Of a stretch of 43,433 bases of DNA, positions 4,350 to 19,176 are shown one piece after another. The position numbers and the translations under genes are program-made. Below the pieces are notes generated by a model that did not search any database, was not told the origin of the DNA, and worked only from the letters and a program-made list of their open reading frames with translations. Every line of letters begins with the position of its first letter. Within the stretch, counting starts at the first letter, position 1. Source of the stretch: a virus; IMG/VR virus record IMGVR_UViG_3300009497_000010, positions 1 through 43,433 of that record; one strand, 5' to 3'.

Positions 4350-4957
4350 CAGTTCTCAGTTACGGCGCATGGCGCACGAACGCCGAGCTAATCGCAGACG
4401 TCGCCAAGCTCGGATACCTCGACGGCCGGGTGCTCGACCTCACCTTCGGCGAAGGCAAGTTCTGGACCGACCACCGGCCTCGGGATCTGGAGACCAACGA
4501 CCTCGACGAGGCTAAGGCCGACTGGAGCTTCGACGTGACGAGCACGGTCCCGGAGCACTGGGTCGACGCGTTCGATTCGGTCGTCTTCGATCCTCCGTAT
4601 CGGATGTCGGGTCGGCGAGATGGGCGCACGGCGCTCGTCGACACGAGCTTCGATGACCGCTTCGGTCTCACCGAGTACACCTCGCCGAACGAGGTGCTCG
4701 CTCTCATCAGCTCGGGCATTCAGTTCGCTGCCGGGTGCGTGAAGCCTGGCGGCTCGATCCTCGTGAAGTGCCAGGACCAAGTCTGCTCGGGCCGCAAGGT
4801 CTGGCAGAGCGTGCACGTCCACGAGGTCGCCACGATCCTCGGCCTTCGGGTCGCCGACATGTTTCACCTGATCCAGGGCAACGCCCGACCGCAGCCTTCG
4901 GGTCGACGGCAGGTCCACGCCCGCTCGAACGCTTCGCAGTTGCTGGTGCTGCGATGA
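4346..4957 (+). CDS. Orphan DNA amino-methyltransferase (N6-adenine or N4-cytosine)
   Basis: A 203-residue SAM-dependent methyltransferase. Motif I is LDLTFGEG (residues 30-37), motif IV is DPPY (82-85), and the C-terminus SNASQLLVLR gives the last strand. DPPY marks transfer to an exocyclic amino group of adenine or cytosine. The start at 4346 follows the repeated CAAGGACACACC leader. No restriction endonuclease gene is adjacent, so it is an orphan enzyme, possibly protecting phage DNA from host restriction. The target sequence cannot be told from the protein. Confidence 0.85.
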   Translation: MTVLSYGAWRTNAELIADVAKLGYLDGRVLDLTFGEGKFWTDHRPRDLETNDLDEAKADWSFDVTSTVPEHWVDAFDSVVFDPPYRMSGRRDGRTALVDTSFDDRFGLTEYTSPNEVLALISSGIQFAAGCVKPGGSILVKCQDQVCSGRKVWQSVHVHEVATILGLRVADMFHLIQGNARPQPSGRRQVHARSNASQLLVLR

Positions 4958-5887: not shown

Positions 5888-6052
5888 ATGAAGTTTCAAG
5901 TTCAGTACTTCGCCCAACATCTCAATGGTTGGGTCGACGAGTTCGAATCTAGTTCGTTCCCGACTCGTGAAGCCGCCGAGAAAGCAATGAAAGCTTGTGC
6001 CGAACGGTTCACCGGGAACAAGCATCGCGTGATCGAGATCGGCAAGGCATGA
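5888..6052 (+). CDS. Hypothetical protein (54 aa)
   Basis: ATG at 5888 is preferred over the in-frame ATG at 5858 because it follows the recurring CCAACCAAGAAAGACAACATC leader, whereas 5858 has no leader. The protein has an N-terminal beta strand (MKFQVQYFAQHL) and a helix (TREAAEKAMKACAERF), a small alpha/beta fold. It overlaps the next gene by 4 bases. No family is recognised. Confidence 0.65.
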   Translation: MKFQVQYFAQHLNGWVDEFESSSFPTREAAEKAMKACAERFTGNKHRVIEIGKA

Positions 6053-6381
6053 TCTCCGAATGCTCGGCCTGCGCTCCCGACGGGCACCTCGACCGCAGCG
6101 ACTGCCGATATTGCGACGGCACCGGTTCGACCGGCCGGATCACCATCGACTTGCCGCACGCTTTCTACGACGACCACACCGACCGAGGCTGCGGCTCGAC
6201 CGGCAGGATCATCAAGACACTCTCGAAGACCTACCGAGTCTCTCTCGACCGTGAAGCCTTCGCCGACCTCCGCTCCGACGCCAGGCACTACGGGCTGGAC
6301 TCGGCGTCGGAGTTCTGGCAGGACTACCGAGCACTCGTGCTCTCAGCACGGGCCACCCTGAAGCGACTCGACGCAGCATGA
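6049..6381 (+). CDS. Zinc-motif hypothetical protein (110 aa)
   Basis: The start is the ATG within the ATGA overlap. The N-terminus has CSAC and CRYCDGTGSTGR, a DnaJ-type CxxCxGxG arrangement, with a further Cys in RGCGSTGR. The C-terminal half is helical (FADLRSDARHYGLDSASEFW). No enzyme motif is visible. It shares the zinc pattern with the 52-residue protein at 4954. Confidence 0.7.
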   Translation: MISECSACAPDGHLDRSDCRYCDGTGSTGRITIDLPHAFYDDHTDRGCGSTGRIIKTLSKTYRVSLDREAFADLRSDARHYGLDSASEFWQDYRALVLSARATLKRLDAA

Positions 6382-6551
6382 TCGGCACGTACATCACGCT
6401 CGCAGCGCTCGGCGCATCGAGCCTCGCAGCATTCAAGCTCGCAGACTGGCTCGACACCCTCCGGCCACCGGCCGAACCCGGTCGGCTCACCGACCACCAG
6501 ATCTCGGCGATCCTCGCCGCAGTAACCCCAACCATTAAGGACAAGAAATGA
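6378..6551 (+). CDS. Small putative membrane protein (57 aa)
   Basis: An ATG at 6378 overlaps the previous stop and the frame runs to TGA at 6549-6551, overlapping the next start. The first 22 residues are hydrophobic (YITLAALGASSLAAF), consistent with one membrane segment or a signal anchor. The rest is Pro-rich then helical (QISAILAAV). The last codons encode the CCAACCATTAAGGA leader of the following gene. The tight overlaps on both sides support it as real. Confidence 0.55.
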   Translation: MIGTYITLAALGASSLAAFKLADWLDTLRPPAEPGRLTDHQISAILAAVTPTIKDKK

Positions 6552-7444
6552 AATTTGCATCTACCCAGGGCCAGCAGACGAGGCACACCCGCGACGGTGT
6601 CAAGCTCATCGAAGGCAGGCAGATGATCACCCCCGATCAGGCGGCTCAGCTCCTGGCAGGTGTCCCGACCTATCAGCGCAGCTTCAGCCCGAATCACGCG
6701 AAGAAACTCGCCGTCGATATGAGGGCGGGCCGGTGGCATCACTCGAACGATCAGATCGTCGTCGACACGAACTGTGCGCTAGTGAACGGTCAGCACCGGA
6801 TGTCGGCGACCGTCGCGTCGGGCGCTCCGCAACCGTTCACGATCATGATCGTTGAACCCGAAGAAGCCGAACGCATGTTCGCCGAGATGGACCAGGGCAA
6901 AACCCGGTCAGTCTCGGACTTCCTCAAGAGTCACGGCGTGCACGACTATGCAATGACCGGAGCGATCGCCCGAGGCGGCTTCGCATACGACCGAGGCGCT
7001 CAGGTCTCGACGATGATCCACGGGCGACCAGACCCGACACGGCACGAGCTGATCGAATGGGTCGACGAGAACCCCCAGGTGATCGAAGCCTGCCGCCTCG
7101 TTCGAGAGATGGGCGCAGCAGGACTTCGTCCGAACGGCCGGGTGCACGGCGTGCTCTCCTTCCTCACACTCCGGGACGTGCAAGAGTTCGACGCCTCGGA
7201 GTTCTGGCACGAGGTCGCCACCGGCGACACGTTGTATCACTCCGGTGCTTGGTGGCTTCGGGATCGCATGTTCCGCCAGACCGCAGACAAGGGAACGATG
7301 CCACTCAAGAACCTGAAGCTCGCCGACGCGATTATCTGCTGGAACCTCTGGACCGATCAGGCCACACGGGAGCGCATGTCATGGTGGAAACCAGGCTCAA
7401 CGAAGACCTTCCCGGCCTGCCGATACATCGACACCGAAGCATGA
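6548..7444 (+). CDS. ParB/DGQHR-like domain protein
   Basis: A 298-residue protein. Residues 29-86 contain TYQRSFSPNHAKKLAVDMRA and LVNGQHRMSA, the (D/N)GQHR signature of the ParB/sulfiredoxin-like fold. A helical C-terminus follows (DFLKSHGVHDYAMTGAIARG and a Trp-rich end). ParB-like phage proteins bind DNA or nucleotides and often sit near DNA-modification genes. Here it lies 4 kb from the modification operon, so a direct link is only possible. The start follows a CCAACCATTAAGGACAAGAA leader. Confidence 0.75.
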   Translation: MKFASTQGQQTRHTRDGVKLIEGRQMITPDQAAQLLAGVPTYQRSFSPNHAKKLAVDMRAGRWHHSNDQIVVDTNCALVNGQHRMSATVASGAPQPFTIMIVEPEEAERMFAEMDQGKTRSVSDFLKSHGVHDYAMTGAIARGGFAYDRGAQVSTMIHGRPDPTRHELIEWVDENPQVIEACRLVREMGAAGLRPNGRVHGVLSFLTLRDVQEFDASEFWHEVATGDTLYHSGAWWLRDRMFRQTADKGTMPLKNLKLADAIICWNLWTDQATRERMSWWKPGSTKTFPACRYIDTEA

Positions 7445-7623
7445 AATACCCGAACGGGCCAGGATCGAAATATCCTCGGGCCGAGATCATGAACGCTATG
7501 GTCCTTCTCGTTGAAGCCCATCCGGCGGGACCGGTAACGATCCAGGCGAAGCAGCTCGACGCCATCGTCGAGTTCGCCCAGGACGCAGAGCTTCGACTTC
7601 GAGACTTCGAGGAACTCACATGA
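7441..7623 (+). CDS. Hypothetical protein (60 aa)
   Basis: Starts in an ATGA overlap with the ParB-like gene and ends overlapping the WhiB gene. It is a mostly helical protein (AEIMNAMVLLVEAHPAG, QLDAIVEFAQDAELRLRDF) with no recognised motif. Both overlaps point to a real, co-translated gene. Confidence 0.65.
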   Translation: MKYPNGPGSKYPRAEIMNAMVLLVEAHPAGPVTIQAKQLDAIVEFAQDAELRLRDFEELT

Positions 7624-7862
7624 ATCTGGAATGGCAAGATCGAGCAGCCTGCAAGGGCATGTCGACGGCGTTGTTCTTCCCTGCAAAGGGCGTCAGGGCG
7701 AGGGAGGCTCTAATCGCCTGCCAACGCTGCCCGGTAGCCGAACCCTGCGAAGCTCACGCAAGACGAGAGACGTGGATTCAGGGCATCTGGGGTGGAACCT
7801 CGCACCGTGAACGACGCAAGCCAAACTCGAACGGCAAGCTGAAACGAAACACGGCAGCGTGA
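7620..7862 (+). CDS. WhiB-family iron-sulfur transcriptional regulator
   Basis: An 80-residue WhiB-like protein. The four cluster cysteines are C11 (RAACKG), C34 and C37 (CQRC) and C43 (EPCEAH), followed by the family turn GIWGGTS and a basic C-terminus (RRKPNSNGKLKR). WhiB proteins hold a 4Fe-4S cluster and bind the main sigma factor to change promoter choice. The family is essentially confined to Actinobacteria and their phages, which gives the best host clue in the window. It may act on the repeated phage promoters, but no target is shown. Confidence 0.92.
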   Translation: MNLEWQDRAACKGMSTALFFPAKGVRAREALIACQRCPVAEPCEAHARRETWIQGIWGGTSHRERRKPNSNGKLKRNTAA

Positions 7863-8242
7863 TCACCCCAAGGTTCAAGACATCGAAGCCGCCGAGGCAA
7901 CGGTCGACAGGGACCGCCGAGGCACGAACGGCCACGCGGCGAAATGCGCGTGGCCGTTGCCAGGCCGACGGCCTCCACGTCGACGACTGCCCTGGCAGCG
8001 ACCTCGACGAAGCGTTCGTCGCACACCGGGTAAACCCCGGCAGGCAAGGCGGCACCTACGACCCGGCGAACATGATCTGGGTTTACAACGGCGGCACCGG
8101 CCTCGGCGCTGGCGGATGCCACCAAAACATTCACTCGAACGGCAGGCTCGCCAGGGTGCTGGGTCTACTATCCGAGGGCAGCGACGACCCGTGGCACGGC
8201 ATCGGCATCGACCTCGGACGACAAGAAGGATTTTTGCAATGA
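7859..8242 (+). CDS. HNH-type endonuclease
   Basis: A 127-residue protein starting at a GTG that overlaps the WhiB stop. The core reads AHRVNPGRQGGTYDPANMIWV, then GCHQNIHSN, giving the H...N...H pattern. Upstream, RCQADGLHVDDCPG may supply zinc-binding cysteines. HNH proteins in phages are either homing endonucleases or helpers of packaging and recombination. It is far from the terminase genes, so an accessory role is more likely. Confidence 0.78.
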   Translation: MITPRFKTSKPPRQRSTGTAEARTATRRNARGRCQADGLHVDDCPGSDLDEAFVAHRVNPGRQGGTYDPANMIWVYNGGTGLGAGGCHQNIHSNGRLARVLGLLSEGSDDPWHGIGIDLGRQEGFLQ

Positions 8243-8526
8243 ATCACCACGAGATCGACGAGCTGCGGGGCTGGGTCGATTGCATGGTCAAGGCGTCGGA
8301 TGATCCCGGCGAGATGGCTATCTGGGAAGGCGTCACGAACGAAGCCGTTAACGGCATCGCAGCAGGCGAGACGACATGGCCGGACGAACTCCGCGACATG
8401 GTGTTCGCGTACGTCGAAGCGATGGGCGAACTCCTCGACGAGTCGCCGATCCTGGCCTGGGGACCGGGCGACTCGATCGCCGTCGTGCTCGCCATGATGC
8501 TGATCGAGAACGGTGTCGACGCGTGA
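8239..8526 (+). CDS. Hypothetical acidic protein (95 aa)
   Basis: The start is the ATG overlapping the HNH stop. The protein is acidic and helical (HHEIDELRGWVDCMVKAS, DELRDMVFAYVEAMGELL, SIAVVLAMMLIENGV). No family is recognised. The C-terminal helix is hydrophobic but too short to call a membrane span firmly. It overlaps the next membrane protein gene, so the two may act together. Confidence 0.68.
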   Translation: MNHHEIDELRGWVDCMVKASDDPGEMAIWEGVTNEAVNGIAAGETTWPDELRDMVFAYVEAMGELLDESPILAWGPGDSIAVVLAMMLIENGVDA

Positions 8527-8714
8527 TCTACGTGCTGATTTGGATCTGGACCGTCGGGGCCATCGTCATAGCGACGGCGATGCTCGACCAAACATCGAAC
8601 CGGCCGAGAACCAGGCTCGCGAGGATCGGCGTCGTCTTGTTCTTCCTCGCCTGGCCGATCACCTTCTCCGGTGCCATCCTGGCCGGTGTATTCGGAGCGG
8701 GAAGACTGAAATGA
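8523..8714 (+). CDS. Small two-segment membrane protein (63 aa)
   Basis: Starts at a GTG overlapping the previous stop. Two hydrophobic segments are clear: IYVLIWIWTVGAIVIATAML (residues 2-21) and IGVVLFFLAWPITFSGAILA (about 35-54), separated by a basic loop (NRPRTRLAR). The topology resembles a small holin or superinfection-exclusion protein. No lysin gene is adjacent, so no specific role is assigned. Confidence 0.65.
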   Translation: MIYVLIWIWTVGAIVIATAMLDQTSNRPRTRLARIGVVLFFLAWPITFSGAILAGVFGAGRLK

Positions 8715-8779
8715 AGACACAAACACTGCCTGACCGCTACGGTGTCAGGGCACCTAAACCAATCGGAGCAACACAATGA
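8711..8779 (+). CDS. Very short overlapping ORF (22 aa)
   Basis: An ATG at 8711 overlaps the previous stop and its TGA overlaps the next start, so the frame fits the tightly packed operon. The DNA also contains an inverted repeat (CCTGAC about 8730, GTCAGG about 8745) that could regulate the secreted-protein gene. It could be a leader peptide. Coding status is uncertain. Confidence 0.35.
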   Translation: MKTQTLPDRYGVRAPKPIGATQ

Positions 8780-9276
8780 AATATCGCAATATCCTCGCAG
8801 CGGCAGCAATGCTCGCCTCGGTCGTGTTCATCGGCGGCACTGCCAACGCTCAGGATGTCGTCGTCGTTGACCACACCTGCACCTACAACGAAGCCATCGC
8901 CGGAGTCTGCAACCTCGACCGCACGATCTATATGGTCGACTTGCTGCCAGGCGACGGCATGGCCGACTGGTTCACAACATACGGCGGACTCGACGTCGGC
9001 TGCGTGAACTTCGGCTTCGAACAGACCCTGTGCACCCCGGTGACCTTCACCCGAGGCAACGGCGTGTCGTGCGTGGTCTATCCGACATTCACGCACTGCC
9101 AGGCCGACGCCGAACCCGTGACCCCCGAACAGGTGATCGTGATCGTCCCGGCCGACTCCGAATGCGTCGTCGACACCGACGGCCGGATCGTCTGCGCACC
9201 CAAAGCAACACCGACACCGGATCCCGGACCCGCACCCGATACCATCCCAGCACCTCAGCCAGCGTTCACGGGCTGA
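8776..9276 (+). CDS. Secreted Cys-rich protein with signal peptide
   Basis: A 166-residue protein with a Sec signal peptide: basic start MKYRN, hydrophobic core ILAAAAMLASVVFIGG and a likely cleavage after ANA. The mature part carries about eight Cys (for example HTCTYNEAIAGVC, VGCVNFGFEQTLC), probably disulfide-linked outside the cell. It ends in a Pro/Thr-rich tail (TPTPDPGPAPDTIPAPQ). It may act at the host envelope, such as in exclusion. No known family is recognised. Confidence 0.75.
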   Translation: MKYRNILAAAAMLASVVFIGGTANAQDVVVVDHTCTYNEAIAGVCNLDRTIYMVDLLPGDGMADWFTTYGGLDVGCVNFGFEQTLCTPVTFTRGNGVSCVVYPTFTHCQADAEPVTPEQVIVIVPADSECVVDTDGRIVCAPKATPTPDPGPAPDTIPAPQPAFTG

Positions 9277-9370
9277 CAGGGACTCGTTCCGGCTTCTCTA
9301 CCAAGAGGCTCCAAAGAGTCGGAACTAGTGGCCGGGCAGGTATTCCCTTTGCCTGACCGGCAATCCAACC

Positions 9371-9405
9371 CAGGAACCCGCGGCCACTCATACCGCGGGT
9401 TCCTG
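9371..9405 (+). terminator. Strong hairpin after the secreted-protein gene
   Basis: CAGGAACCCGCGG (9371-9383) and its exact reverse complement (9393-9405) form a 13-bp stem with a 9-nt loop. No U tract follows, as is common in high-GC actinobacterial terminators. It closes the accessory operon ending at 9276. A TAGCAT box shortly after (9426-9431) may begin the next transcript. Confidence 0.75.
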
Positions 9406-9459
9406 CGCGTCTGGGACGCGATCGACTAGCATCAACCCCGACTACGAACGGGGCACGCC

Positions 9460-9993
9460 TTGCACTGGATGAAGTACGCGGCTTGCCGCGGGAAAGACCC
9501 GACGCTCTGGATCGGCGACGACACCACCGGACCAGACCCGGTCGCCGCCAAATACTGCGCGGCGTGCGTCGTCCGAGCGAAGTGCATCGACCTCGCCACC
9601 GGATACACAAACGAACAGGCGATCGGCCTCTGGGGCGGCACCCGCGAGAACATGCGCAAGGAACTCCGACGACGCCAGGCCAGGCATGGATGCGACACCT
9701 ACCGGGCAGGCTGCTCGTGTCACTACTGCGTGAAGGTGACCGAGATCCTGAACCCTGGCCGGTCCCCGATCTCCTCGAACAGTCGCGGCGCACGCCACGG
9801 CTACACGTCGACTCACGGCAAGGGATGCCGATGCCGAGGCTGCTGCCACGCCGCAGCATGGCGCACCCGCAAGAACAAACAACACAAACCAGACGACACG
9901 CCGGTCGTGATCGTGCTCGACGACGAACGCTGCGAACCCCACCAGATCGACCGCTGCCGAGCCTGCGCTCACGTCGAAGCGATGACCGCATGA
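9460..9993 (+). CDS. WhiB-like regulator fused to a Cys-rich C-terminal region
   Basis: A 177-residue protein. The N-terminal 65 residues are WhiB-like, with C9 (AACRG), C33, C36 (CAAC) and C42, then GLWGGTRENMRKELRRR. The C-terminal 100 residues are unusual, with many Cys (CSCHYC, CRCRGCCH, CRAC) that could bind one or two zinc ions. The TTG at 9460 is taken as start because it keeps the W at residue 3 typical of WhiB; ATG at 9469 is the alternative. It lies after a strong terminator and a TAGCAT box. Confidence 0.8.
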   Translation: MHWMKYAACRGKDPTLWIGDDTTGPDPVAAKYCAACVVRAKCIDLATGYTNEQAIGLWGGTRENMRKELRRRQARHGCDTYRAGCSCHYCVKVTEILNPGRSPISSNSRGARHGYTSTHGKGCRCRGCCHAAAWRTRKNKQHKPDDTPVVIVLDDERCEPHQIDRCRACAHVEAMTA

Positions 9994-10460
9994 ACGTCGA
10001 CCTACCGGACGGGCCGAACGCCGCCTTCGTCGACGACGAAGACTGGCACCGCCAGGCCGCGACGATCGCGAAGGTCTGGGCACTCTCGCAATGGTGGATG
10101 GGCGACCTACTCAACGCCGCTCCGTCACCCGACGCCATCAACGACCTGCATTGGTCGTCGCCGCTACTCGAACCCCGAGAGACCGCCGAAGTCCGCGAGA
10201 TCGCCGCCAGCTTCGAACCGCACCGTCGGCGAGATGTCCCGTGGGCCTACCATCGGCGGGTGCAATCGGCGCTGCTACCACCAGACCTGCAAGACTTCCT
10301 GCTCGACACCTGCTCGACGCTCGACCTTCGCTTCATGCACCTGCAAGAGATGATCAGCCGATACCTGAAAGACCAACGCGCTAAACAGATCCGAGCCGAC
10401 CGAGAATCCGGCGACTACGTCGAAGGCGACGGAGTAATCACCTTCCATCAACAGCAATGA
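9990..10460 (+). CDS. Hypothetical protein (156 aa)
   Basis: Overlaps the WhiB-like gene by 4 bases. It is an all-helical protein with several Trp (WALSQWWMGDLL) and a basic C-terminal helix (MISRYLKDQRAKQIRADRES). No domain is recognised. It ends 12 bases before the ParB-like gene of the modification operon and might be its first gene, though its codon use fits the upstream block better. Confidence 0.7.
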   Translation: MNVDLPDGPNAAFVDDEDWHRQAATIAKVWALSQWWMGDLLNAAPSPDAINDLHWSSPLLEPRETAEVREIAASFEPHRRRDVPWAYHRRVQSALLPPDLQDFLLDTCSTLDLRFMHLQEMISRYLKDQRAKQIRADRESGDYVEGDGVITFHQQQ

Positions 10461-10472
10461 CAGGAACCCGAA

Positions 10473-11000
10473 ATGGCAGATAAGAAGATCCACAAGATCG
10501 CACCCGGTCTTGAAACACTGATGACACCGATCGCTGAACTTCACCGGCTACCCAGCAACCCTCGGCTCGGCGACGTTCACGCTGTCGCTAAGTCATACAA
10601 AGAGTTCGGGCAACGCAAGCCTGTCGTGTACCAAACACGCCGAGGGAAAAAAGTTGTAGTGGCAGGCAATCATCAGCTCGAAGCTGTCGCAGGATTAGGG
10701 TGGACACACATTGCCGCGGTGTCTGCCGACGACCTCACAATGAAGCAAGCGCAAGCCTTCGCACTCGCCGACAACAGGATCGGCGAGCTGGGACTCTATG
10801 ACGAGTCTTTGCTCGTCGAGCTGCTTAGTTCTTTGCCTGCCGAGTTGGTCGACGTGACCGGATACTCGGATATCGACATCGAGCGGCTTCTTGGTACCGG
10901 TTACGACTCTGGGAGTGCACCGGAGGGTTTTGACGAGTTCGATGTCGACTCGCTCGATCTTGAACACCAATGCCCTAAGTGTGGGTTCGAGTTCGACTGA
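10473..11000 (+). CDS. ParB-N/sulfiredoxin-like protein, first gene of the modification operon
   Basis: A 175-residue ParB-N domain protein: TPIAELHRLPSNPR, a helix, then VVVAGNHQLEAVAGLGW (signature GNHQ at residues 65-68), and ALADNRIGELGLYDESLL, typical of phage ParB/methyltransferase-associated proteins. It ends in CPKCGFEFD (Cys 167 and 170), half a zinc knuckle. Stand-alone ParB-like genes often precede phage DNA methyltransferases, where they may guide or aid base modification. Its stop overlaps the methyltransferase start (TGATG). The preceding sequence ACAGGAACC is a likely ribosome site. Confidence 0.82.
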   Translation: MADKKIHKIAPGLETLMTPIAELHRLPSNPRLGDVHAVAKSYKEFGQRKPVVYQTRRGKKVVVAGNHQLEAVAGLGWTHIAAVSADDLTMKQAQAFALADNRIGELGLYDESLLVELLSSLPAELVDVTGYSDIDIERLLGTGYDSGSAPEGFDEFDVDSLDLEHQCPKCGFEFD

Positions 11001-12058
11001 TGAAACCGCCCTATCAGATCCCGTCTGTAAGTGATATCAAAGCGGGTGAGAAGACATCTGGCCTCAAGGCCGTGTCGACGTTCTCCGGCGCGGGTGGCGC
11101 TTCGCTCGGATTGGCATGGTCAGGCATCGAAGTGATCTGGGCATCAGAGTTCATCGACGCAGCCGCCGACGTGTACGAGCTAAACAATCCCGGCATTCAA
11201 GTCGACCGCCGAGACATCAGACAAGTGACAGGCAGCGAGATCCTCGACGCTGTCGGTCTCGGCGTCGGTGAACTCGACGTGTTCGAAGGTTCGCCGCCTT
11301 GTGCTTCGTTCTCCATGTCAGGGAAACGCGAAGCAGGATGGGGCAAGGTCAAGTCGTACTCCGAGACCTCCCAGAGGGTCGATGACTTGTTCTTCGAGTT
11401 CGTCCGATTAGTCGACGAGATCCAACCAAAGACCTTCATCGCAGAGAACGTCGATGGCATGACGATGGGAGTCGCTAAGGGTTATCTCAAGGAGATCGTT
11501 CTCAGGCTCCGTGCTATCGGTTACCGGGTCGGAGTCTGGCGGCTCGACTGCTCTAGACTCGGAGTCCCGCAACGAAGAGTGCGCCTAGTCATACATGGCG
11601 TCCGAGACGACCTTCAAGCAGTTCTCGTAGCCCCTAAGCCATTCGACTATGTCTACACCTGGGCCGACGCTACCAAGCAGCCTACGCCCGTTAATGACGA
11701 CCCTCTGCCACCCTGGTCCGCCGACTCGAAACTCGCACGGGTCATGTCGAAAGCTAAACCCGGCGAATCAGGCCAAGCGGTTGTCGGCACCGGCTCTTTC
11801 TTCTCGCACTACAGGCTCGCACCCGGCGAACCGGCACCCACAATCCTACAAACCAACAACTGGGTGCTGCCCCCCTACGAGAACCGACGTATCACGCTTG
11901 GTGAAGTCCGTCGGCTATGCGGATTCCCCGACGACTTCGCCCTCACTGGTAACTTCAGCCAAAGATGGGAACGACTAGGACGCGCAGTCGCGCCTCCGAT
12001 GTACAAAGCCGTCGGCGAGTCGATCATCGAAGCCTTGAAAGGACAACCCAATGGATGA
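11000..12058 (+). CDS. C5-cytosine DNA methyltransferase, predicted carboxymethyltransferase
   Basis: A 352-residue C5-cytosine methyltransferase. Motif I is FSGAGGASLGL; motif IV is GSPPCASFS with nucleophile C101; motif VI is ENV (E149); motif VIII is QRRVR. In motif X the usual LGNAV/LGNSV reads LGRAV, so the conserved Asn is Arg328 (codon at 11981-11983). The engineered M.MpeI N374K change at this residue lets the enzyme use carboxy-SAM and form 5-carboxymethylcytosine. With a CmoA homologue in the same operon, natural carboxymethyl transfer is inferred. ATG at 11000 is chosen because it overlaps the ParB stop; a GTG at 10979 is in frame but less likely. Confidence 0.9.
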   Translation: MKPPYQIPSVSDIKAGEKTSGLKAVSTFSGAGGASLGLAWSGIEVIWASEFIDAAADVYELNNPGIQVDRRDIRQVTGSEILDAVGLGVGELDVFEGSPPCASFSMSGKREAGWGKVKSYSETSQRVDDLFFEFVRLVDEIQPKTFIAENVDGMTMGVAKGYLKEIVLRLRAIGYRVGVWRLDCSRLGVPQRRVRLVIHGVRDDLQAVLVAPKPFDYVYTWADATKQPTPVNDDPLPPWSADSKLARVMSKAKPGESGQAVVGTGSFFSHYRLAPGEPAPTILQTNNWVLPPYENRRITLGEVRRLCGFPDDFALTGNFSQRWERLGRAVAPPMYKAVGESIIEALKGQPNG

Positions 12059-12890
12059 AGTGGCCAAGGAATGGAAGCGCCGACTGATGGCTGTCATCCA
12101 GGAGGGAGAGATGGAGAACATCCCGAACCTGCTTTCGGGCGGGGTCGACTCTGCGACCTTGCTCGCAGCCCAAATGGAGTTGGGAGGGCAACCTCTATGC
12201 GTGACATTCACTATCGGTGGTCGACTCCACGACGATGCCAAGATGGCGATACGGATGGCCGATCGGTACGACCTCGACGCAGAGATAGTCAACTTGGACA
12301 GGTCAAAGACTGCCCTGGTCGCCGACATCCGCAGGATCATGGATATCAGACAGACCGCAAAGAAGGCGTCCATACAGTGCGCCCAACCCATAATGCATAT
12401 CGCCGAGCGGCTTACATCTCTCGGCTTCGATCGTGCGATGATCGGTACTGGTGCAGTTTGTTTGGACGATAAGCGTGTGGCAATTCTCGTGTCACAACAA
12501 GGCGAGGAGGTTGCGCGCGAGTACAGACGGTCGAAGCTCGAAGACCGGTACACAGATTGTGGTACTGGGCACATGCACGGGGTTGCTCGCGATCTTGGCG
12601 TCACGCTCGAAGAGCCTTATTCTGACGAGCCACTACGGGACTATGCGTTGGGTCTGGACTTCTCAGAATTGAACCGCGGACCAGACGGACCGAAGCAGAA
12701 AGGGATCGCAGTTCGAGCGTTCCCCGAGTTCTGGTCGACCCCTGGGTTCTGGCGTCGGAACTCGCCGCTGCAAGTAAACTCAGGCATCAGAGAGTGGCAT
12801 GACCTACTGTTGGTCGACCCCGAGTTCAATACTCGCGGACTGAAATCTGTCGTAGGTGTGTACAACGATATGTTCGCTGGGAAGGTTTGA
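12051..12890 (+). CDS. Asparagine-synthetase-like PP-loop ATP ligase without glutaminase domain
   Basis: A 279-residue protein matching only the C-terminal synthetase half of AsnB. The PP-loop is LLSGGVDSATLL (SGGVDS at residues 29-34). A GTGAVCLDD segment (132-140) aligns with the AsnB SGEGSDE loop. EPYSDEPLRDYAL (188-200) matches the AsnB RVPFLD..L..A block, followed by a Lys (K215). AsnB adenylates a carboxylate and an amine attacks it. There is no N-terminal Cys glutaminase, so the amine must come from elsewhere. In this operon I infer amidation of a carboxymethyl base. It overlaps the methyltransferase by 8 bases. Confidence 0.85.
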   Translation: MDEVAKEWKRRLMAVIQEGEMENIPNLLSGGVDSATLLAAQMELGGQPLCVTFTIGGRLHDDAKMAIRMADRYDLDAEIVNLDRSKTALVADIRRIMDIRQTAKKASIQCAQPIMHIAERLTSLGFDRAMIGTGAVCLDDKRVAILVSQQGEEVAREYRRSKLEDRYTDCGTGHMHGVARDLGVTLEEPYSDEPLRDYALGLDFSELNRGPDGPKQKGIAVRAFPEFWSTPGFWRRNSPLQVNSGIREWHDLLLVDPEFNTRGLKSVVGVYNDMFAGKV

Positions 12891-12891
12891 A

Positions 12892-13863
12892 ATGAAGCTG
12901 ACAGAAGGCCCATACGCTGTTTCTTTGGAACAGGAGTTCGGTTCGTTCCTGACGTCTCACGGTGATGCGTTGCCACTGCAATCGACGGTGGCTTGTTCGT
13001 CAGGAACAACAGCGCTGTTCGGTGCTTTTGTCGGTTGCGGGATCGGCCCGGGTGACGAAGTGGTAGTGCCAGGGTACGGCTTCCAGGCGGCGGCTTTAGC
13101 TGTGTTGATGGTCGGGGCGCAGCCCGTATTCGCTGATGTCGATCCTGTCTGGGGGCTGATCGACCCGGACACTGTCCCGGTCGACGACCCAAAAGCGATA
13201 GTGGCCATCGACCTTGACGGTCGGGTAGCCAACTACGAACGCATCAACGAATTGTTCCCTGATGCTTGGATCGTCGAAGATGCTGCACCGTCTTTGGGTT
13301 CGGCCGGTCTTTGTTCCGAATATGTGGATGTGGCGATCTTCTCCGGGAACGAATCCAAGAAGTGGTCGTGCGGCGAAGGCGGGATGATCTCGACACCCAG
13401 CCGAGATATCGCACATGTGGCGAGGGCCGCCATGAGGTTCGGGGAAACGGACTACAAACCCGCGGGTGGATATCGCACCTCGAACGTGCGAGGTATGAAC
13501 GGGAAGATACCTGAACTGTGCGCAATGACCGGACTCGCTGACCTGCCTTTCGTTCGTGGACGGTCAATAGAGGCGGACAGGTCGCGTAGCATCATCTCTA
13601 TCGAGCTGGGACTGCCTGAAGTCCCGTCTGGCTCGACAGTCGCATGGCACAAGATACGTCTGCCGATAGGGCTACGGGATCGATGGGCGGGACCAACCAC
13701 ACCCACCACGGTCGCTCCATTGGAAGACCATCCGTTGTTCTCTGATTACGTGACGAGACCTCTGGTCGGCGCCCGCCAGTTCCACGAGTCTACTTTCGTG
13801 ATCGGCGACAGAACCCATACTCCTTGGTCGGGCACTCTGCCTGGCTTCTTGAAAGGCAAATAA
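12892..13863 (+). CDS. DegT/DnrJ/EryC1-family PLP aminotransferase
   Basis: A 323-residue fold-type I aminotransferase of the sugar/cyclitol class. ACSSGTTAL (residues 34-42) holds the PLP phosphate, GDEVVVPGYGFQA is the family signature, VEDAA places D130 at the PLP ring nitrogen, and SGNESKKWSCGEGG gives K156 as the likely Schiff-base lysine. Relatives such as StsC and BtrS aminate inososes. It is shorter than the usual 370-400 residues. An amine for the preceding ligase, perhaps on an inositol ring, is inferred. The ATG at 12892 follows a GAAGG site. Confidence 0.88.
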   Translation: MKLTEGPYAVSLEQEFGSFLTSHGDALPLQSTVACSSGTTALFGAFVGCGIGPGDEVVVPGYGFQAAALAVLMVGAQPVFADVDPVWGLIDPDTVPVDDPKAIVAIDLDGRVANYERINELFPDAWIVEDAAPSLGSAGLCSEYVDVAIFSGNESKKWSCGEGGMISTPSRDIAHVARAAMRFGETDYKPAGGYRTSNVRGMNGKIPELCAMTGLADLPFVRGRSIEADRSRSIISIELGLPEVPSGSTVAWHKIRLPIGLRDRWAGPTTPTTVAPLEDHPLFSDYVTRPLVGARQFHESTFVIGDRTHTPWSGTLPGFLKGK

Positions 13864-14924
13864 TGAGCAATGGAAATCGTAAGATCCGAACCGGCTTGGT
13901 TGGGGTAGGAAACTGTGCCGCTGCGTTATTGGAAGGCATCCAGTGGTACGCCGAGAACCCCGGGGAGACGAAGGGCCTGTTGTCCCCGGACATCGACGGA
14001 TACAAGATAGGTGACATCGATGTTGTGATGGCGTTCGATGTCGATGTTCGTAAGGTTGGTTTGACGATCGGAGAGGCAGCAGAGTTCAATGAACGACGAT
14101 TGGCGAAGCCGCTGAACTTCCCAGGGCCAGTGATGCCGTCTCCACGGCTAGACGGGCTTGCGTCGACTTCGATTGTCGAAACCACGGACGACATGACGGC
14201 GTCTGTCGAAGACATCGCACATGAGCTGCGAATGCAGAACCTCGACGTGTTGGTGAATTACCTGCCAGTGGGGTCGACGCTGGCATCGGAACTGTACGCT
14301 CTCGCAGCCGCAGAAGCCGGTGTGGCTTTCCTGAACTGCATACCAGTCGAGATCGCACGCAACGCCACTATCGCCGAACGGTTCGCCCTTCTGAACGTCC
14401 CGTTGATCGGTGATGACATCAAGTCGCAATATGGAGCGACGATCTTGCACAGGTCGCTGGTACGTATTTGCGCCGAGCGTGGCGTCCACTTGGAATCCAC
14501 CTACCAGTTGAACGTCGGAGGCAACGCAGATTTCCGAAACATGCTGGACCAATCGAGACTCACAGACAAGAGGATCTCGAAGACCACTTCGGTGACCGAC
14601 GTGTACCCAGTAGACAAAGTCCATATCGGCCCGTCCGATTATGTCGACCATCTCGATGACACCAAGATCGCTTTCATCAACCTGGACATGGTCGGGTTTG
14701 CCGGGTCGCCGATGTCGGTGGATCTCAAATTGGAGGTCATCGACTCCCCGAACTCTGCTGGCATCGTGGTTGACGGAATCCGTTACCTAGCAGTGGCCAA
14801 GAACCGTGGCATCGGTGGAGTTCTCGACGCGCCGTCTGGGTTCCTGATGAAAGCACCCCAGAACCACACAAACGACGATCTCGGGGCGAAGCGCGCAGCC
14901 GTAGCCTTCTTGTCAGATGAGTGA
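13863..14924 (+). CDS. ino1: myo-Inositol-1-phosphate synthase
   Basis: A 353-residue homologue of actinobacterial Ino1. The NAD-binding start is GLVGVGNCAAALL; GDDIKSQ (183-189), LNVGGNADFRNML (216-228), KVHIGPSD and LKLEVIDSPNSAG (288-300) match the catalytic blocks of the Mycobacterium enzyme, so activity is likely. The reaction turns glucose 6-phosphate into inositol phosphate with internal NAD redox. Actinobacteria use inositol for mycothiol and phosphatidylinositol, but this position between an aminotransferase and a CmoA homologue suggests supply of a cyclitol for DNA modification. Its start overlaps the aminotransferase stop (TAATG). Confidence 0.93.
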   Translation: MSNGNRKIRTGLVGVGNCAAALLEGIQWYAENPGETKGLLSPDIDGYKIGDIDVVMAFDVDVRKVGLTIGEAAEFNERRLAKPLNFPGPVMPSPRLDGLASTSIVETTDDMTASVEDIAHELRMQNLDVLVNYLPVGSTLASELYALAAAEAGVAFLNCIPVEIARNATIAERFALLNVPLIGDDIKSQYGATILHRSLVRICAERGVHLESTYQLNVGGNADFRNMLDQSRLTDKRISKTTSVTDVYPVDKVHIGPSDYVDHLDDTKIAFINLDMVGFAGSPMSVDLKLEVIDSPNSAGIVVDGIRYLAVAKNRGIGGVLDAPSGFLMKAPQNHTNDDLGAKRAAVAFLSDE

Positions 14925-15606
14925 CCAAACGATGCCCGTAGGCAAATGGGAGTTCGACGAGACTGTGACGGCCGTGTTCGACGACATGCTGGCCAGGTCG
15001 ATACCAGAGTTCAAAACAATGCGGGCCGCTGTTTCCGACATCGCCTGCGAGTTCCTACCAAACGGAGGTGTTGTCCTCGACGCCGGATGCTCTAGAGGCG
15101 GCGCACTAGCAGCCGTAATAGCCCGAAGACCAGACTGCACCGCCGTAGGTCTCGAAATATCGGAACCGATGCGACAAAGCGCCGCAGACCGATTCAAACA
15201 CGACTCAAACGTCACCATCCTCCGCTGGGATCTCCGCAACGGCATCCCAGACCAAAGAGTCGACGTCACCCTCGCCGTACTAACCCTGCAATTCACACCC
15301 ATCGAGTACCGCCAACAGATCATCGGCTCAATACGAGAACGAACAAACGGGCCACTCATCCTCGTCGAGAAAGTACTCGGCCGAGGACACCAAATCGACC
15401 AGAAAATGGTTGATCTCTACTACAGAATGAAACGATCACACGGCTACACCCAAGAACAAATCGACACCAAGCGACACTCGCTCGAAGGCCAACTCGTACC
15501 CCTCACCGCAGCAGGGAACGAAACCCTGCTCAAAGACTGCGGATATCAATCAGTCGACTGCTTCTGGCGATGGATGAACTTCGCCGCATGGATCGCCCTG
15601 CCATAA
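14917..15606 (+). CDS. cmoA: CmoA-like carboxy-S-adenosylmethionine synthase
   Basis: A 229-residue protein alignable to E. coli CmoA (247 residues) over its length. The N-terminus [20 protein letters not shown] matches [30 protein letters not shown] is the SAM loop; LTLQFTP matches [25 protein letters not shown] matches NGYSELEISQKRSMLEN, keeping Arg186 at the place of Arg199, which binds the carboxylate; and the Trp/Phe-rich end matches too. CmoA converts SAM plus prephenate to carboxy-SAM for tRNA cmo5U with CmoB. No CmoB is seen here, so I infer that the product feeds the cytosine enzyme. It overlaps ino1 by 8 bases. Confidence 0.9.
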   Translation: [229 protein letters not shown]

Positions 15607-15703
15607 GCACTAACTAACGGACAGGAAGTGACTGAACATCGCAGGCAAGAAACGAAACCCGAAGAGATTCACCGAGCATGAAGTTGCCGAGCAGAAGGCG
15701 GCG

Positions 15704-16171
15704 GTGTTACGCGGGCGGATGGTCGGGGCGACCTTCGCTGCGATAGCTGCTGGCCTGTCGAGGGAAACGAAAGACGGGCAACCGGTCGACGAAGCCACGG
15801 TGCGCCGAAGGTACCAATCGGCCATCGAGGACTACCGTGTGCCGCGCGCGGAGTGGGAGCGGTACAGAGGTGTTCAGTTAGCTGAGATCGAGGCAGCGAA
15901 GGAGAAAGCGCTGTCGGCGATCTTGGGGTGGAACCGGAGCCAGCCGCCTGGTGACCTATCGGGACCAATCGCTTCACTTGTAAGGCTTCAGGAACGTGCC
16001 GACCGTGTGATCGGGTTTCCGCAGGAGGCACCGGCACCGCCACCGGCGAACGCTGGCGCTCTCGATTACGTGCGGAGCATCGTCACGAATCAGGTCGCGC
16101 ATAAGGCCATGCTCGCTTCGATGAAGATGATTGAGACAGAGATCCTCGACGTCGAGATCCTCGACGAATGA
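15704..16171 (+). CDS. Probable terminase small subunit
   Basis: At least 155 residues. An HTH-like segment (GATFAAIAAGLSRE, then DEATVRRRYQSAIEDY), a long helix (LAEIEAAKEKALSAILGW) and an acidic C-terminus fit a small terminase. It overlaps the large subunit by 4 bases. GTG at 15704 is the first standard start, but the in-frame sequence upstream to a CTG at 15632 (preceded by ACAGGAAG) encodes KRFTEHEVAEQKAAVLRGRM, which would complete the first HTH helix. The true start may therefore be that CTG. Confidence 0.7.
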   Translation: MLRGRMVGATFAAIAAGLSRETKDGQPVDEATVRRRYQSAIEDYRVPRAEWERYRGVQLAEIEAAKEKALSAILGWNRSQPPGDLSGPIASLVRLQERADRVIGFPQEAPAPPPANAGALDYVRSIVTNQVAHKAMLASMKMIETEILDVEILDE

Positions 16172-17808
16172 CGGTCACCGACGGCGACCGCACCGAGTCG
16201 GCTTGGATGCTGAACCCGGCGCGGATGAACGAACGACTGAACCCAGACAGTCGCACGAACTATCCACACATCGATCTCATCGCGTCGGAGAACATCGCGT
16301 CGGTCCTCGACCCCGACGTCTTCATCCACGTCACGCAGACCCAGAACCAGATCGGGAAGTCATCGACGGTAGCCGAGGGTGTCGTGACCTGGCTGCTGGA
16401 GCTGTTCCCGACGCTGCCGATCATGATCGGCTCGCACTCGAAGGAGCTAAGTCGCAAGTCGGGGCGGGCGGTGCGAAACAACTTCGCCAACAACCCCGAC
16501 ATTCTGTCGACGAGGGTCTCAGGCGACTCGAAGGCCGCGGATCGGTGGAACACCACCAGGGGCGGCTCGGTGCTCGCCACGTCGGTCGGAGGCGGTGTCG
16601 GCTGGCCTGCCACCGTGTTCGTCGGTGACGACCTGCTGAAGAACTTCATCATGGCGCAGAACCCGGCAAACCGGCAGAAGGCGATCGATTGGCTGATGGG
16701 CGATGTCATCGGCAAGCTCCGCAAGCACATCGTGAGAATGGATGATGGCACCCGCTTCACGATCCATCCGACAGTCTTGCTACCGGCGACCCGCTATCAC
16801 CTCGATGATCCGTCGGGCCGTATGCTCGAACTATTCCCTGACCGGTCGAGGGTGACACACCTGCCGGGTCTGGCCGACCCGGCGATCTCGGATCCTGACC
16901 CGCTCGGCCGTGCACCGGGCCAGGTCGTCTGCCCCGACTTCTACGATCGCGAGGAGATGGAGAACCTTCGCGAAGTGATGGACGACGTCACCTTCGCCAC
17001 GATGGTCCAGGGCACGCCACGCAACCTGACCGGCGGAACCATCAACCGCGACCGCTGGGTCTGGGCGTCGGCCGCTCCGATCAAGGACGACCGGCGACTA
17101 CTCACGTTCACCTCGTGGGATCTCACGTTCACCGACACCGGCTCTTCCTGGGTAGTCGGGCAGCTCTGGACCGCGCTCCAGTCGCCGACCTCGCCGAGAC
17201 TCTTCGACCTGTACCTGCTCGACCAGATCCGGCGGAAAGCAGACTTCGTCGGGCAGCGGTTGATGATCCGAGCGTTCTGCGAAGCGAACCCCGATGCGAC
17301 ACATCACTTGATCGAGAACAAGGCGAATGGCGCTGCGATCATCGCCGACCTGGGCAGCGAGTGGATCGACACGACCTTCGACGATCCGGCACCGGGCGAG
17401 CTGCGACGGAGCAAGGGTGCGACGGTCGGCTTCGACGGCACGAGGCGTTGGCCTGCGATCTCTGGGATCGTGCCGATCACACCGTCGACCTCGAAGCTTG
17501 CCAGGGTGCTCGACATCTCTCGGCTCGTGCACGACGGCCGCGTGTTCCTGCCCGAGTGGTGGGAGCCATCAAGCTCGCCGAGGTTCCCTGGCGACCTGGG
17601 CGACGACCCGATGCACCAGTTCCCGGCCTCACTGATCAACGAAGCCGCCGACGTCCCGTACGGTGCGACGGATGATGAGATCGACACGGCCACGCAGGCG
17701 ATCTCGTGGGCGAGGGATTACCTCGGGCCGCTGCTGGCCGACGGGATCTGGGGTGTGGATAACGGGCCGAGGGTGGCGACGAACACGTCGATGATGGGCA
17801 GGCGTTAA
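16168..17808 (+). CDS. Terminase large subunit
   Basis: A 546-residue packaging ATPase/nuclease. The P-loop is QTQNQIGKSS (58-66), an atypical Walker A that keeps GKS. Walker B is VFVGDDLLKN (D154/D155), followed by the NRQKAIDWLMGDV coupling block. The RNase H-like nuclease shows TSWDLTF (D318) and IENKANGAAII (E383), matching the family's SWD and E-K-A-N-G motifs. It docks to the portal encoded at 22955 and fills the capsid. The stretch between motor and virion genes holds accessory genes, so the packaging and head modules are split by about 5 kb. Confidence 0.93.
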   Translation: MTVTDGDRTESAWMLNPARMNERLNPDSRTNYPHIDLIASENIASVLDPDVFIHVTQTQNQIGKSSTVAEGVVTWLLELFPTLPIMIGSHSKELSRKSGRAVRNNFANNPDILSTRVSGDSKAADRWNTTRGGSVLATSVGGGVGWPATVFVGDDLLKNFIMAQNPANRQKAIDWLMGDVIGKLRKHIVRMDDGTRFTIHPTVLLPATRYHLDDPSGRMLELFPDRSRVTHLPGLADPAISDPDPLGRAPGQVVCPDFYDREEMENLREVMDDVTFATMVQGTPRNLTGGTINRDRWVWASAAPIKDDRRLLTFTSWDLTFTDTGSSWVVGQLWTALQSPTSPRLFDLYLLDQIRRKADFVGQRLMIRAFCEANPDATHHLIENKANGAAIIADLGSEWIDTTFDDPAPGELRRSKGATVGFDGTRRWPAISGIVPITPSTSKLARVLDISRLVHDGRVFLPEWWEPSSSPRFPGDLGDDPMHQFPASLINEAADVPYGATDDEIDTATQAISWARDYLGPLLADGIWGVDNGPRVATNTSMMGRR

Positions 17809-17809
17809 C

Positions 17810-17998
17810 GTGTATCACATGCTGGAAAACATGAAAGATAGGGTCATCCTGAGAAGGCATAAATGGCATGTGACAGGACTTCATGCCAGAGACAAAAACG
17901 GTAAAGACTTTCAGACTGTCCTGTGCAGCCGCTGCTGGTGGTACAAGGATGATGCAGGCAGACCCCGACTGTGCAACACGTCGAGGCGGCGACGATGA
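17810..17998 (+). CDS. Small hypothetical protein (62 aa)
   Basis: Begins 1 base after the terminase stop with GTG; ATG codons at 17819 and 17831 are alternatives. The protein is basic, with a CSRCWW pair and a final Cys. Its DNA is noticeably more A/T-rich than its neighbours (ggaaaacatgaaagataggg). It has no recognised family. The composition suggests a recent insert between terl and the next promoter. Confidence 0.55.
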   Translation: MYHMLENMKDRVILRRHKWHVTGLHARDKNGKDFQTVLCSRCWWYKDDAGRPRLCNTSRRRR

Positions 17999-18000
17999 AA

Positions 18001-18053
18001 GATATTTCACTGGGTAACGCGTCAACCCGTTGGTAACGCGCTAAGGTGTACTC
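18001..18053 (+). promoter_or_regulatory. Twin-GTAACGCG leaderless promoter, copy 3
   Basis: GTAACGCG at 18014-18021 and 18033-18040, TAAGGT at 18042-18047, gap gtactc, ATG at 18054. The upstream tract is gatatttcac. Confidence 0.82.
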
Positions 18054-18383
18054 ATGAACGAAAAAGCAACCCCCGAAATGTACGTAGCGGGAGTCGAAGC
18101 GCTCCGATCTGAAGCTTCAGCGAAACGGAAGGCTGATACGAGTGCAGCGCTACGAGAAACAGGCGAGACCGTCGACGGCCTGCCTGTCCTTGAGGTTGCT
18201 ACAGATTCAGGTTCTCCAGCCGTCCTGCGCTTGACCGAAACGATGTGCGCTTGCGGCGAGTACCTGGGGACACACCAGTTCGTGTACTGGAAGAAGTCAC
18301 ATGGCTACCTGCACGTCGCATGCCTGGACCTAGCTTCATCTGGGTACAAGCCTGGCGAGTCCCAGGGTGGACTGTTCGCATGA
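18054..18383 (+). CDS. Hypothetical protein with CxC/C zinc-like end (109 aa)
   Basis: A leaderless gene. The N-terminal half is helical and charged; the C-terminal half has CACGEYLGTHQFVYWKKSHGY with a later HVACL, a possible zinc-binding beta domain. The first 18 bases (ATGAACGAAAAAGCAACC) are identical to the start of the minus-strand gene ending at 31939, showing that promoter and first codons were copied together. No function is recognised. Confidence 0.75.
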   Translation: MNEKATPEMYVAGVEALRSEASAKRKADTSAALRETGETVDGLPVLEVATDSGSPAVLRLTETMCACGEYLGTHQFVYWKKSHGYLHVACLDLASSGYKPGESQGGLFA

Positions 18384-18418
18384 TCACCAACCAGCCAACC
18401 AACCACGAAGGAACCAAC

Positions 18419-18835
18419 ATGAACATCATCGAAATTGCCGAAGAAACCGGAGCGAAGGAAACGGCAAACACCGCAAAACCACCCGCAGCACTCCAGGCAC
18501 GAGCCGAGCGCATCGCCGCCCAGTTCCGAGGCGCAGGCCACACGGTCGACATCGACCATCAGGACTGCTCCAGCGAATACGGCGCTGCCTGGTTCACCTC
18601 GATCATCTTCGATGACAAGGCGACGCGGCACATACTGAACTCGTCGTCGGGCCACGTCCTGCTCTCCTGCGGCAGATCCGGCCGGACCCGCTTCGACTCG
18701 ATCCTCGTGATGAGCTTCTCCGGCATCCAGAAGTCGAAGAAGCTGGCAGACGCTCAGATCAAGGCGGACGTCTACGCAGGACTTCACCGCAACGAGTGCC
18801 CATACGGTCTGCCATTCCAAGCGGACTTCCGGTGA
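18419..18835 (+). CDS. Hypothetical protein (138 aa)
   Basis: The start follows the CCAACCAACCACGAAGGAACCAAC leader. Residues 25-60 contain QARAERIAAQFRGAGHTVDI, followed by a beta-rich region (WFTSIIFDDKATRHILN, GHVLLSCGRSGRTRF). The C-terminus is helical. It may be a single alpha/beta domain; no family is recognised. It overlaps the next gene by 4 bases. Confidence 0.72.
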   Translation: MNIIEIAEETGAKETANTAKPPAALQARAERIAAQFRGAGHTVDIDHQDCSSEYGAAWFTSIIFDDKATRHILNSSSGHVLLSCGRSGRTRFDSILVMSFSGIQKSKKLADAQIKADVYAGLHRNECPYGLPFQADFR

Positions 18836-19077
18836 GCGCTGACGCCGACCTGCTTGCGGCTCTGCTGCTCGGAGGTGAGATCACCGCCGACGCTGCCGTG
18901 TCGGAGCTGGCGGCACGGCAGGCCGTCAGCTCACCTAGGACGTCGCCTGGCAAGGTTCGGGCTGCTGCCGCCCGAGCGATCTCGTCGAGGTTGCCTCGGA
19001 GCGAGCAGCCCGCCTTCTGGCAGGCGCTGCCGGTCACGCAGCCGAGGCAGGGACCGTATCGGGTGCGGTCGAGGTGA
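18832..19077 (+). CDS. Hypothetical Ala-rich protein (81 aa)
   Basis: Starts at a GTG overlapping the previous stop. It is rich in Ala and Arg, with the helix DLLAALLLGGEITADAAVSEL and a basic C-terminus (RQGPYRVRSR). No family is recognised. An open frame starting at 19074 is not annotated because it runs through the next promoter. Confidence 0.6.
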   Translation: MSADADLLAALLLGGEITADAAVSELAARQAVSSPRTSPGKVRAAAARAISSRLPRSEQPAFWQALPVTQPRQGPYRVRSR

Positions 19078-19120
19078 TCGAGCGTCGACGCCTTTGGGTG
19101 TCGGCGCTCCGGGTCGTATC

Positions 19121-19176
19121 AAAGAAAGTTCACCCGGTAACGCGTCAAGCCGTTGGTAACGCGCTAAGGTGTCTAC
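19121..19176 (+). promoter_or_regulatory. Twin-GTAACGCG leaderless promoter, copy 4
   Basis: GTAACGCG at 19137-19144 and 19156-19163, TAAGGT at 19165-19170, gap gtctac, ATG at 19177. It is preceded by aaagaaagttcac. Confidence 0.82.

Follow-up and report, generated by a model that had tools for sequence, protein, structure and literature searches.

According to Yang et al. (PMC12783734), cytosines in the DNA of the Synechococcus phage S-B43 are hypermodified by three phage enzymes. An active CmoA (SpCmoA) makes carboxy-S-adenosylmethionine (Cx-SAM), CmoX makes 5-carboxymethylcytosine (5cxmC) in DNA, and SpCmoY, an AsnB homologue, ligates glycine to 5cxmC, both in vitro and in vivo; the modification was shown with native phage DNA. 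That work found 2,251 ligases, described a CmoY of the ammonia type that is fused to a glutamine amidotransferase (GATase), and distinguished several clusters with distinct active-site residues whose amines are still to be identified. Its main text makes no mention of amine supply, and the words inositol, aminotransferase and amidoligase are absent from it.

Here we describe a locus in IMG/VR virus record IMGVR_UViG_3300009497_000010, a 43.4-kb phage contig that was analyzed over its whole length (the window) and that encodes a large terminase (at 16168) and portal, major head and tape-measure proteins. Six genes on the + strand form a tight operon and encode, in order, a ParB-like protein, CmoX, CmoY, a DegT-family aminotransferase, a myo-inositol-1-phosphate synthase (MIPS) family protein and a CmoA homologue; the terminase genes come next. 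We propose, with confidence just short of even, that the last five genes make up a phage DNA hypermodification cassette in which an inosamine made by DegT and MIPS would be joined to 5cxmC by CmoY. If this is true, the product would be a cyclitol-bearing DNA base, of which we know no described example, and the 5cxmC handle would be a modular attachment point, with the amine set by a neighboring gene. For one such ligase clade, the DegT-MIPS cassette offers a concrete and testable answer with a predicted mass. The idea that an AsnB-like ligase without a glutaminase works on a base carboxylate in DNA, which the first-pass annotation of this window had put forward, is in essence published and, as of December 2025, no longer new. 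The supply of the amine by DegT and MIPS, of which that annotation held only the aminotransferase as a neighbor, appears to be new; among open-licence papers, a search for phage or DNA modification with inositol, inosamine, DegT or amidoligase returned nothing evidently relevant, a result that leaves absence in print unproven.

The ligase is an AsnB synthetase domain without a glutaminase

The ligase gene (12051..12890, + strand) begins with ATG and encodes a protein of 279 amino acids with an SGGVDS PP-loop. Pfam matched the protein to Asn_synthase at 38.2 bits (cut-off, 21) and to QueC at 24.8 bits (cut-off, 22) and found in it no glutamine amidotransferase domain, such as a glutamine-hydrolysing asparagine synthetase would carry. 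In NCBIfam, QueC (TIGR00364) scored 24.2 bits against a cut-off of 150.3, and AsnB scored 18.5 bits against 267.1. This ambiguity was settled in favor of AsnB by a ten-sequence profile and by comparison of an AlphaFold model with known structures. The profile, made from ten relatives, matched Escherichia coli AsnB (1ct9) in the PDB at 4.2e-15 over profile positions 9 to 236, whereas its match to QueC (3bl5; 5e-6) was confined to positions 23 to 82. The model had a predicted local distance difference test (pLDDT) score of 90.9 and, over residues 1 to 278, gave Z scores of 23.4 with human ASNS, 22.4 with beta-lactam synthetase and 21.3 with E. coli AsnB. The top 12 rows of this comparison all belonged to the AsnB/ASNS/beta-lactam synthetase group (Z of at least 17.9), with LarE next at 13.0; QueC was not among the 50 rows of the list, an absence that excludes nothing. 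With Foldseek, the top 20 rows were AsnB, ASNS, and beta-lactam or carbapenam synthetases, and QueC came at rank 46.

By profile and predicted structure, then, the protein is an AsnB synthetase domain standing alone, as the first-pass annotation had read it. A QueC or ThiI assignment, named there as the outcome that would have overturned this reading, was rejected on the same comparisons; only NCBIfam ranks QueC first, and it does so below the cut-off. Since other contigs carry relatives at 44 to 52% identity next to the same partners, the open reading frame (ORF) is not a chance one. Like AsnB, human ASNS and beta-lactam synthetase, the ligase has the full-length synthetase fold (Z, 18 to 23), an SGGxDS PP-loop and predicted acyl-adenylate chemistry; unlike them, it has no N-terminal glutaminase and is predicted to act on a DNA base. 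From its analogy with SpCmoY, which acts in the same CmoA/CmoX context (PMC12783734), it is very probably a CmoY-type DNA amide ligase that uses 5cxmC.

CmoX and CmoA homologues share the operon

The gene upstream of the ligase (11000..12058, +; PF00145) is predicted to encode a CmoX-type C5-cytosine carboxymethyltransferase, and it overlaps the ligase gene by the 8 bases 12051 to 12058. As had been noted, the ligase lies between a base-modifying enzyme and an aminotransferase. Its best start is probably the ATG at 11000, which overlaps the stop of the ParB-like ORF. The protein retains C98, F25, E47, F48 and D69 of SpCmoX as well as the carboxylate-binding R350, and it combines the SPPC motif of a C5-methyltransferase with the arginine diagnostic of Cx-SAM use. 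Counted from the ATG at 11000, the catalytic cysteine is residue 101 and the arginine that binds the Cx-SAM carboxylate is residue 328; in the copy used for the alignment, which begins at 11009, they are residues 98 and 325. Among the best 80 of 469 CmoA relatives in viral contigs, the window's own contig included, 57 loci contained CmoX, and arginine occupied the carboxylate column in 56 of the 57 CmoX rows, the exception being a frame-broken ORF. The last gene of the operon (14917..15606, +) encodes the CmoA homologue, a predicted carboxy-SAM synthase. Its closest PDB sequences are YecO (1im8; 6e-27) and 4gek, listed as a tRNA (cmo5U34)-methyltransferase, and it is 26% identical to SpCmoA of S-B43.

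Both the window and S-B43 thus combine, in one operon, a CmoA homologue, a CmoX that has SPPC and Arg350, and an AsnB-domain ligase that stands alone. They differ in that S-B43 ligates glycine and has neither DegT nor MIPS within the 16.8 kb examined, and in that the window CmoY, only 25% identical to SpCmoY, falls in another clade.

In Staphylococcus phage vB-SscS-F1 (L010), a CmoA-CmoY-C5-methyltransferase operon was seen in which the methyltransferase lacks SPPC and has glycine at the column of the Cx-SAM arginine. From the sequence, this may reflect either alignment trouble or another solution to carboxylate binding.

DegT follows CmoY throughout one ligase clade

The DegT/DnrJ/EryC1/StrS aminotransferase gene (12892..13863, +; PF01041), the predicted amine maker, starts 1 base past the ligase stop, most probably at the ATG at 12892. 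It is followed by the gene for the MIPS family protein (13863..14924, +; PF01658), the predicted maker of a ketocyclitol precursor. From CmoX through CmoA, the spacings between successive genes are -8, +1, -1 and -8 bases.

The order ParB-CmoX-CmoY-DegT-MIPS-CmoA recurs in contig L081 (IMGVR 3300028840_004217), whose proteins are 52% (CmoY), 36 to 37% (DegT), 46% (MIPS) and 48% (CmoA) identical to those of the window. We call this contig distant because its presumed terminase ORF, recognized by eye, fails to align with the window terminase. Between its MIPS and CmoA genes (L081:7468-7986) lies an ORF for a weak uracil-DNA-glycosylase-like protein (22.1 bits; cut-off, 24.3). Contig L015 has CmoY-DegT-CmoA, with CmoA straight after DegT. 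Contig L228, from a Microbacterium metagenome-assembled genome (MAG), has ParB-CmoX-CmoY-DegT and ends inside DegT, so the cassette may be cut there.

In a tree built from one CmoY per contig, 22 in all, the window, L081, L015 and L228 formed one clade (support, 97/94) apart from SpCmoY, with L226 and L227 as its neighbors (97/92). DegT lies directly after CmoY in all four members of the clade and in none of the other 18 rows; these include six near-copies of one another and several rows from short contigs. Repeat contigs (L001, L003, L006, L013, L093, L094, L206, L224, L225 and L229) were left out of these counts, as were CmoY matches of 60 bits or less (L092 and L138). L092 has a weak CmoY match (56 bits) with CmoX and CmoA and without DegT; L138, found via DegT, has a CmoY match of 32 bits about 5 kb from DegT and neither CmoX nor CmoA. 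The pairing of CmoY with DegT has outlasted divergence to about 45% (CmoY) and 28 to 37% (DegT) identity, although the four pairs share common ancestry and are therefore not four independent events. In flanks of up to 4 kb to either side of 29 close SpCmoY relatives, by comparison, neither DegT nor MIPS was found (0/29), while 27 of these loci had CmoA and 27 had CmoX. DegT was present in 3 of the best 80 of 469 CmoA loci; only two of these are independent, since the third (L013) is the window's own contig.

Among 396 genomes of the order to which the MAG of L228 (G001) belongs, CmoY was found only at the L228 locus (1/396), and scans with the clade alignment, which needed short exact peptide patterns, gave nothing beyond the window, L081, L015, L226, L227 and L228. 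GATase-fused CmoYs (L049 and the partly covered L083) likewise place an AsnB ligase beside CmoX and CmoA; they differ in carrying their own glutamine amidotransferase domain, so that ammonia is the likely amine there. The CmoYs of L072, L084, L089 and L091 are near-identical to these in the tree.

The window clade and the SpCmoY group share 27 fixed positions, including SGG.DS, D62, K105, R159, P214, K217, Q241 and S244. A further 29 positions are fixed in both the SpCmoY group (at least 95% of rows) and the DegT-linked clade, but to different residues, and 13 of the 29 fall within 133 to 139 and 227 to 250; the rows of the SpCmoY group are 77 to 95% identical to SpCmoY, so fixed positions in that group count for little by themselves.

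DegT and MIPS are also paired outside Cmo loci

DegT was found near MIPS in 7 of 53 viral MIPS loci: the window, L081, L184, L185, L190, L191 and L212. In the last five, DegT immediately precedes MIPS (spacing of -4 in L184 and L212 and of +10 in L190); no CmoX or CmoY match was found in the locus DNA analyzed, and no CmoA was found across the entire contigs. A ParB-like profile derived from the window found matches nearby in all five. Among the ParB-like proteins tested with Pfam, ParB_N was confirmed only in L212, and those of L184, L185 and L190 had no Pfam match. In the three loci read gene by gene (L185, L190 and L212), PP-loop proteins follow DegT-MIPS; L185 has a confirmed PAPS-reductase (PF01507) and L212 a confirmed GT25 glycosyltransferase. 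A terminase-like ORF comes next, recognized by profile in L212 and by eye in L185 and L190. This module, which occupies around 6 to 13 kb of each locus, is possibly another aminocyclitol-based phage modification.

The CmoY-linked and MIPS-linked DegTs grouped as a single clade when compared with 60 other viral DegTs (Shimodaira-Hasegawa-like approximate likelihood ratio test, 99). In a smaller tree with 17 others, the same clade had support of 100/98, and of 98 without the window row. The sample was chosen by similarity to three of the DegTs in question and thus favors near relatives over the family as a whole; rows were dropped if they scored 60 bits or less, fell outside 250 to 480 amino acids or were more than 70% identical to a kept row, which reduced 103 ORFs to 69 rows.

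MIPS also occurs in other phage settings. Phage Moby (L004) carries it in a deazaguanine gene group (7201-12615) annotated with a GTP cyclohydrolase, a QueC-like protein, a queuine tRNA-ribosyltransferase and a QueE-like protein, where it may feed another DNA modification. In phage Cr30 (L005) and L002, the flanks examined around MIPS contain neither DegT nor Cmo genes.

The window DegT matched PF01041 at 119.8 bits (cut-off, 19.8), and its K156, invariant in the DegT alignment, is presumably, by the family motif, the lysine that binds pyridoxal phosphate. Its relatives are longer, both at the N terminus and within the C-terminal part. When a four-sequence DegT profile was compared with the PDB, 8gyh came first and 7b0d second, with nucleoside diphosphate (NDP)-sugar enzymes close behind; the name of 7b0d, "glutamine--scyllo-inositol transaminase," is that given by its depositors and not a tested function. 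The window MIPS reached 102.1 bits for PF01658 (cut-off, 27) and stayed below the cut-offs for PF07994 (17.6/25) and TIGR03450 (314.8/638). Its K236, K240, K268, D294 and K330, invariant in the alignment, align with Mycobacterium tuberculosis Ino1 (1gr0), and we take these shared Lys and Asp positions to be the catalytic ones. The PDB entry that matches it second best, 6k96, is a synthase of five-membered cyclitols, so the ring that MIPS would produce is uncertain. The pair of a DegT-family transaminase and a cyclitol-forming synthase presumably parallels StsC/BtrS-type aminocyclitol routes, from which the phage loci differ in that the three dehydrogenase and phosphatase families sought were not found and in the predicted attachment of their product to DNA.

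Proposed pathway and alternative explanations

In the pathway that we propose, CmoA would make carboxy-SAM and CmoX would use it to carboxymethylate phage DNA at C5 of its cytosines. CmoY would adenylate the base carboxylate with ATP, releasing AMP and pyrophosphate, and transfer it to an amine. This amine would be supplied by the adjacent DegT, whose substrate would be a ketocyclitol derived from MIPS; an inosamine of the scyllo or myo type, or its phosphate, would give 5-(N-inosityl-carbamoylmethyl)cytosine. The inosose might come from host enzymes, or DegT might take the inosose phosphate intermediate of MIPS, in which case, speculatively, NADH would be left on MIPS. Computation shows the fold and family of the ligase, the families of its neighbors, the CmoX arginine, the recurring gene order and the two associations of DegT, with this CmoY clade and with MIPS; the activity of each protein, DNA as the substrate of the window CmoY (by homology to SpCmoY), and the source and identity of the amine are inferred. 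The steps are not equally secure. That DegT supplies the amine we regard as likely; that the amine is an aminocyclitol, most simply an inosamine or its phosphate, has in our estimate slightly less than an even chance, lowered from even because the MAG of L228 shows no MIPS. More tentative still is the wider picture, in which an amide-linked aminocyclitol is built on phage DNA from the inosose or inosose phosphate of DegT and MIPS, amines are swapped through the neighbor of CmoY, and the DegT-MIPS clade also feeds the Cmo-independent module of L184, L185, L190, L191 and L212.

A number of observations weigh against this pathway. Besides the low identity of the window CmoY to SpCmoY and the closeness of the SpCmoY-group rows to one another, the CmoA homologue scored 134.7 bits for TIGR00740, its best NCBIfam family, against a cut-off of 193.3, for which reason we call it a homologue only. 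The window DegT is a short protein at the end of a long branch, and an AlphaFold model of it, made with four sequences, had a pLDDT of 43 and was not used. No DegT profile reached the cut-off of a family with a defined substrate; the best in NCBIfam was PseC, an NDP-sugar enzyme (81.1/423.5 bits). With the window DegT alone as the query, 4qgr, 7kz3 and 8gyh led the PDB matches, 7b0d was low, and the 2-deoxy-scyllo-inosose transaminase 2c7t came only eighth, so ketocyclitol enzymes did not lead. MIPS, sought in nine records with Cmo loci, was found only in that of L081; none was detected across the whole 9-kb contig L015 or in the 3.1-Mb Microbacterium MAG that holds L228. Finally, the window and its six MIPS-DegT relatives contained no PF01408 (inositol-dehydrogenase type), PF13561 (short-chain dehydrogenase/reductase) or PF00459 (inositol monophosphatase) protein, these being the only three families searched for; the search for PF01408 also covered L226, and controls were positive. 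The ketone would therefore have to come from the host, from a family outside the search or straight from MIPS.

Two explanations compete most directly with an aminocyclitol made by DegT and MIPS, and we consider both of them unlikely, to a similar degree. CmoY might join 5cxmC to ammonia, glycine or some other metabolite of the host, with DegT and MIPS serving some other purpose of the phage. SpCmoY does use glycine (PMC12783734), the S-B43 locus examined has no DegT or MIPS, and the presence of MIPS without Cmo genes in the examined flanks of Moby, Cr30 and L002 indicates that phages use MIPS in other ways too. However, a host-supplied amine fits poorly with the constant position of DegT directly behind CmoY in its clade, with the placement of MIPS between DegT and CmoA in two contigs distant from each other, and with the different residues that the DegT-linked clade has at 29 positions fixed in the SpCmoY group. 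Alternatively, DegT might make a noncyclitol amine, such as an amino sugar or another amine derived from a 2-oxo compound, while the inositol from MIPS serves an unrelated step. The lack of MIPS from the L015 contig, which does have DegT, and from the MAG of L228 agrees with this, as does the lead of NDP-sugar transaminases in NCBIfam, all far below their cut-offs. Against it, the DegT clade is linked to MIPS in two distinct genomic settings, and 7b0d, under its depositors' name and despite its low place in the single-sequence search, ranks second with the four-sequence profile.

The remaining alternatives are far less probable. CmoA is a tRNA-modification enzyme in bacteria, which would suit a cassette that modifies RNA or makes a free small molecule. 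This appears very unlikely to us, because the enzyme predicted to accept the carboxymethyl group belongs to the C5-cytosine DNA methyltransferase family and has the CmoX arginine, and because S-B43 provides a precedent with native phage DNA (PMC12783734). Least credible of all is that the ligase ORF encodes a tRNA/deazaguanine enzyme, whether QueC-like or of another kind. QueC does come first in NCBIfam and barely passes in Pfam, but profile and structure favor AsnB over the full length, the similarity to QueC is limited to the PP-loop part, and the identified genes of the cassette are not deazaguanine genes.

Other possible amines and neighboring features

Genes at other CmoY loci may supply other amines. 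In L226, a SET-domain gene and an AdoMet decarboxylase gene (PF02675; 1e-24) lie at 8710-9699 between CmoY, here of the clade neighboring that of the window, and CmoA; a polyamine or decarboxylated S-adenosylmethionine is a possible donor. In Erwinia phage pEa_SNUABM_23 (L011), DUF1611 and alanine racemase genes (6032-8870) directly precede an AsnB-like ligase, which makes a D-amino acid a possible donor; a CmoA homologue lies at 3992-4762, and CmoX matches occur about 17 kb away in three pieces inside one large frame. That the amine on 5cxmC is chosen by the gene beside CmoY is a lead, with one or few loci for each type.

The ParB-like protein at the head of the window operon (10473..11000, +) matched PHROG 620 at 3e-33 and had no Pfam match above the cut-off; ParB-like matches were present in 56 of the best 80 of 469 CmoA loci. 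A DNA-level search with positions 10500-20500 of the window against known phages gave no match. Farther downstream, at 19405-19914, the window encodes an ArdA antirestriction protein (PF07275; 2e-23), a second antirestriction layer besides the predicted DNA modification.

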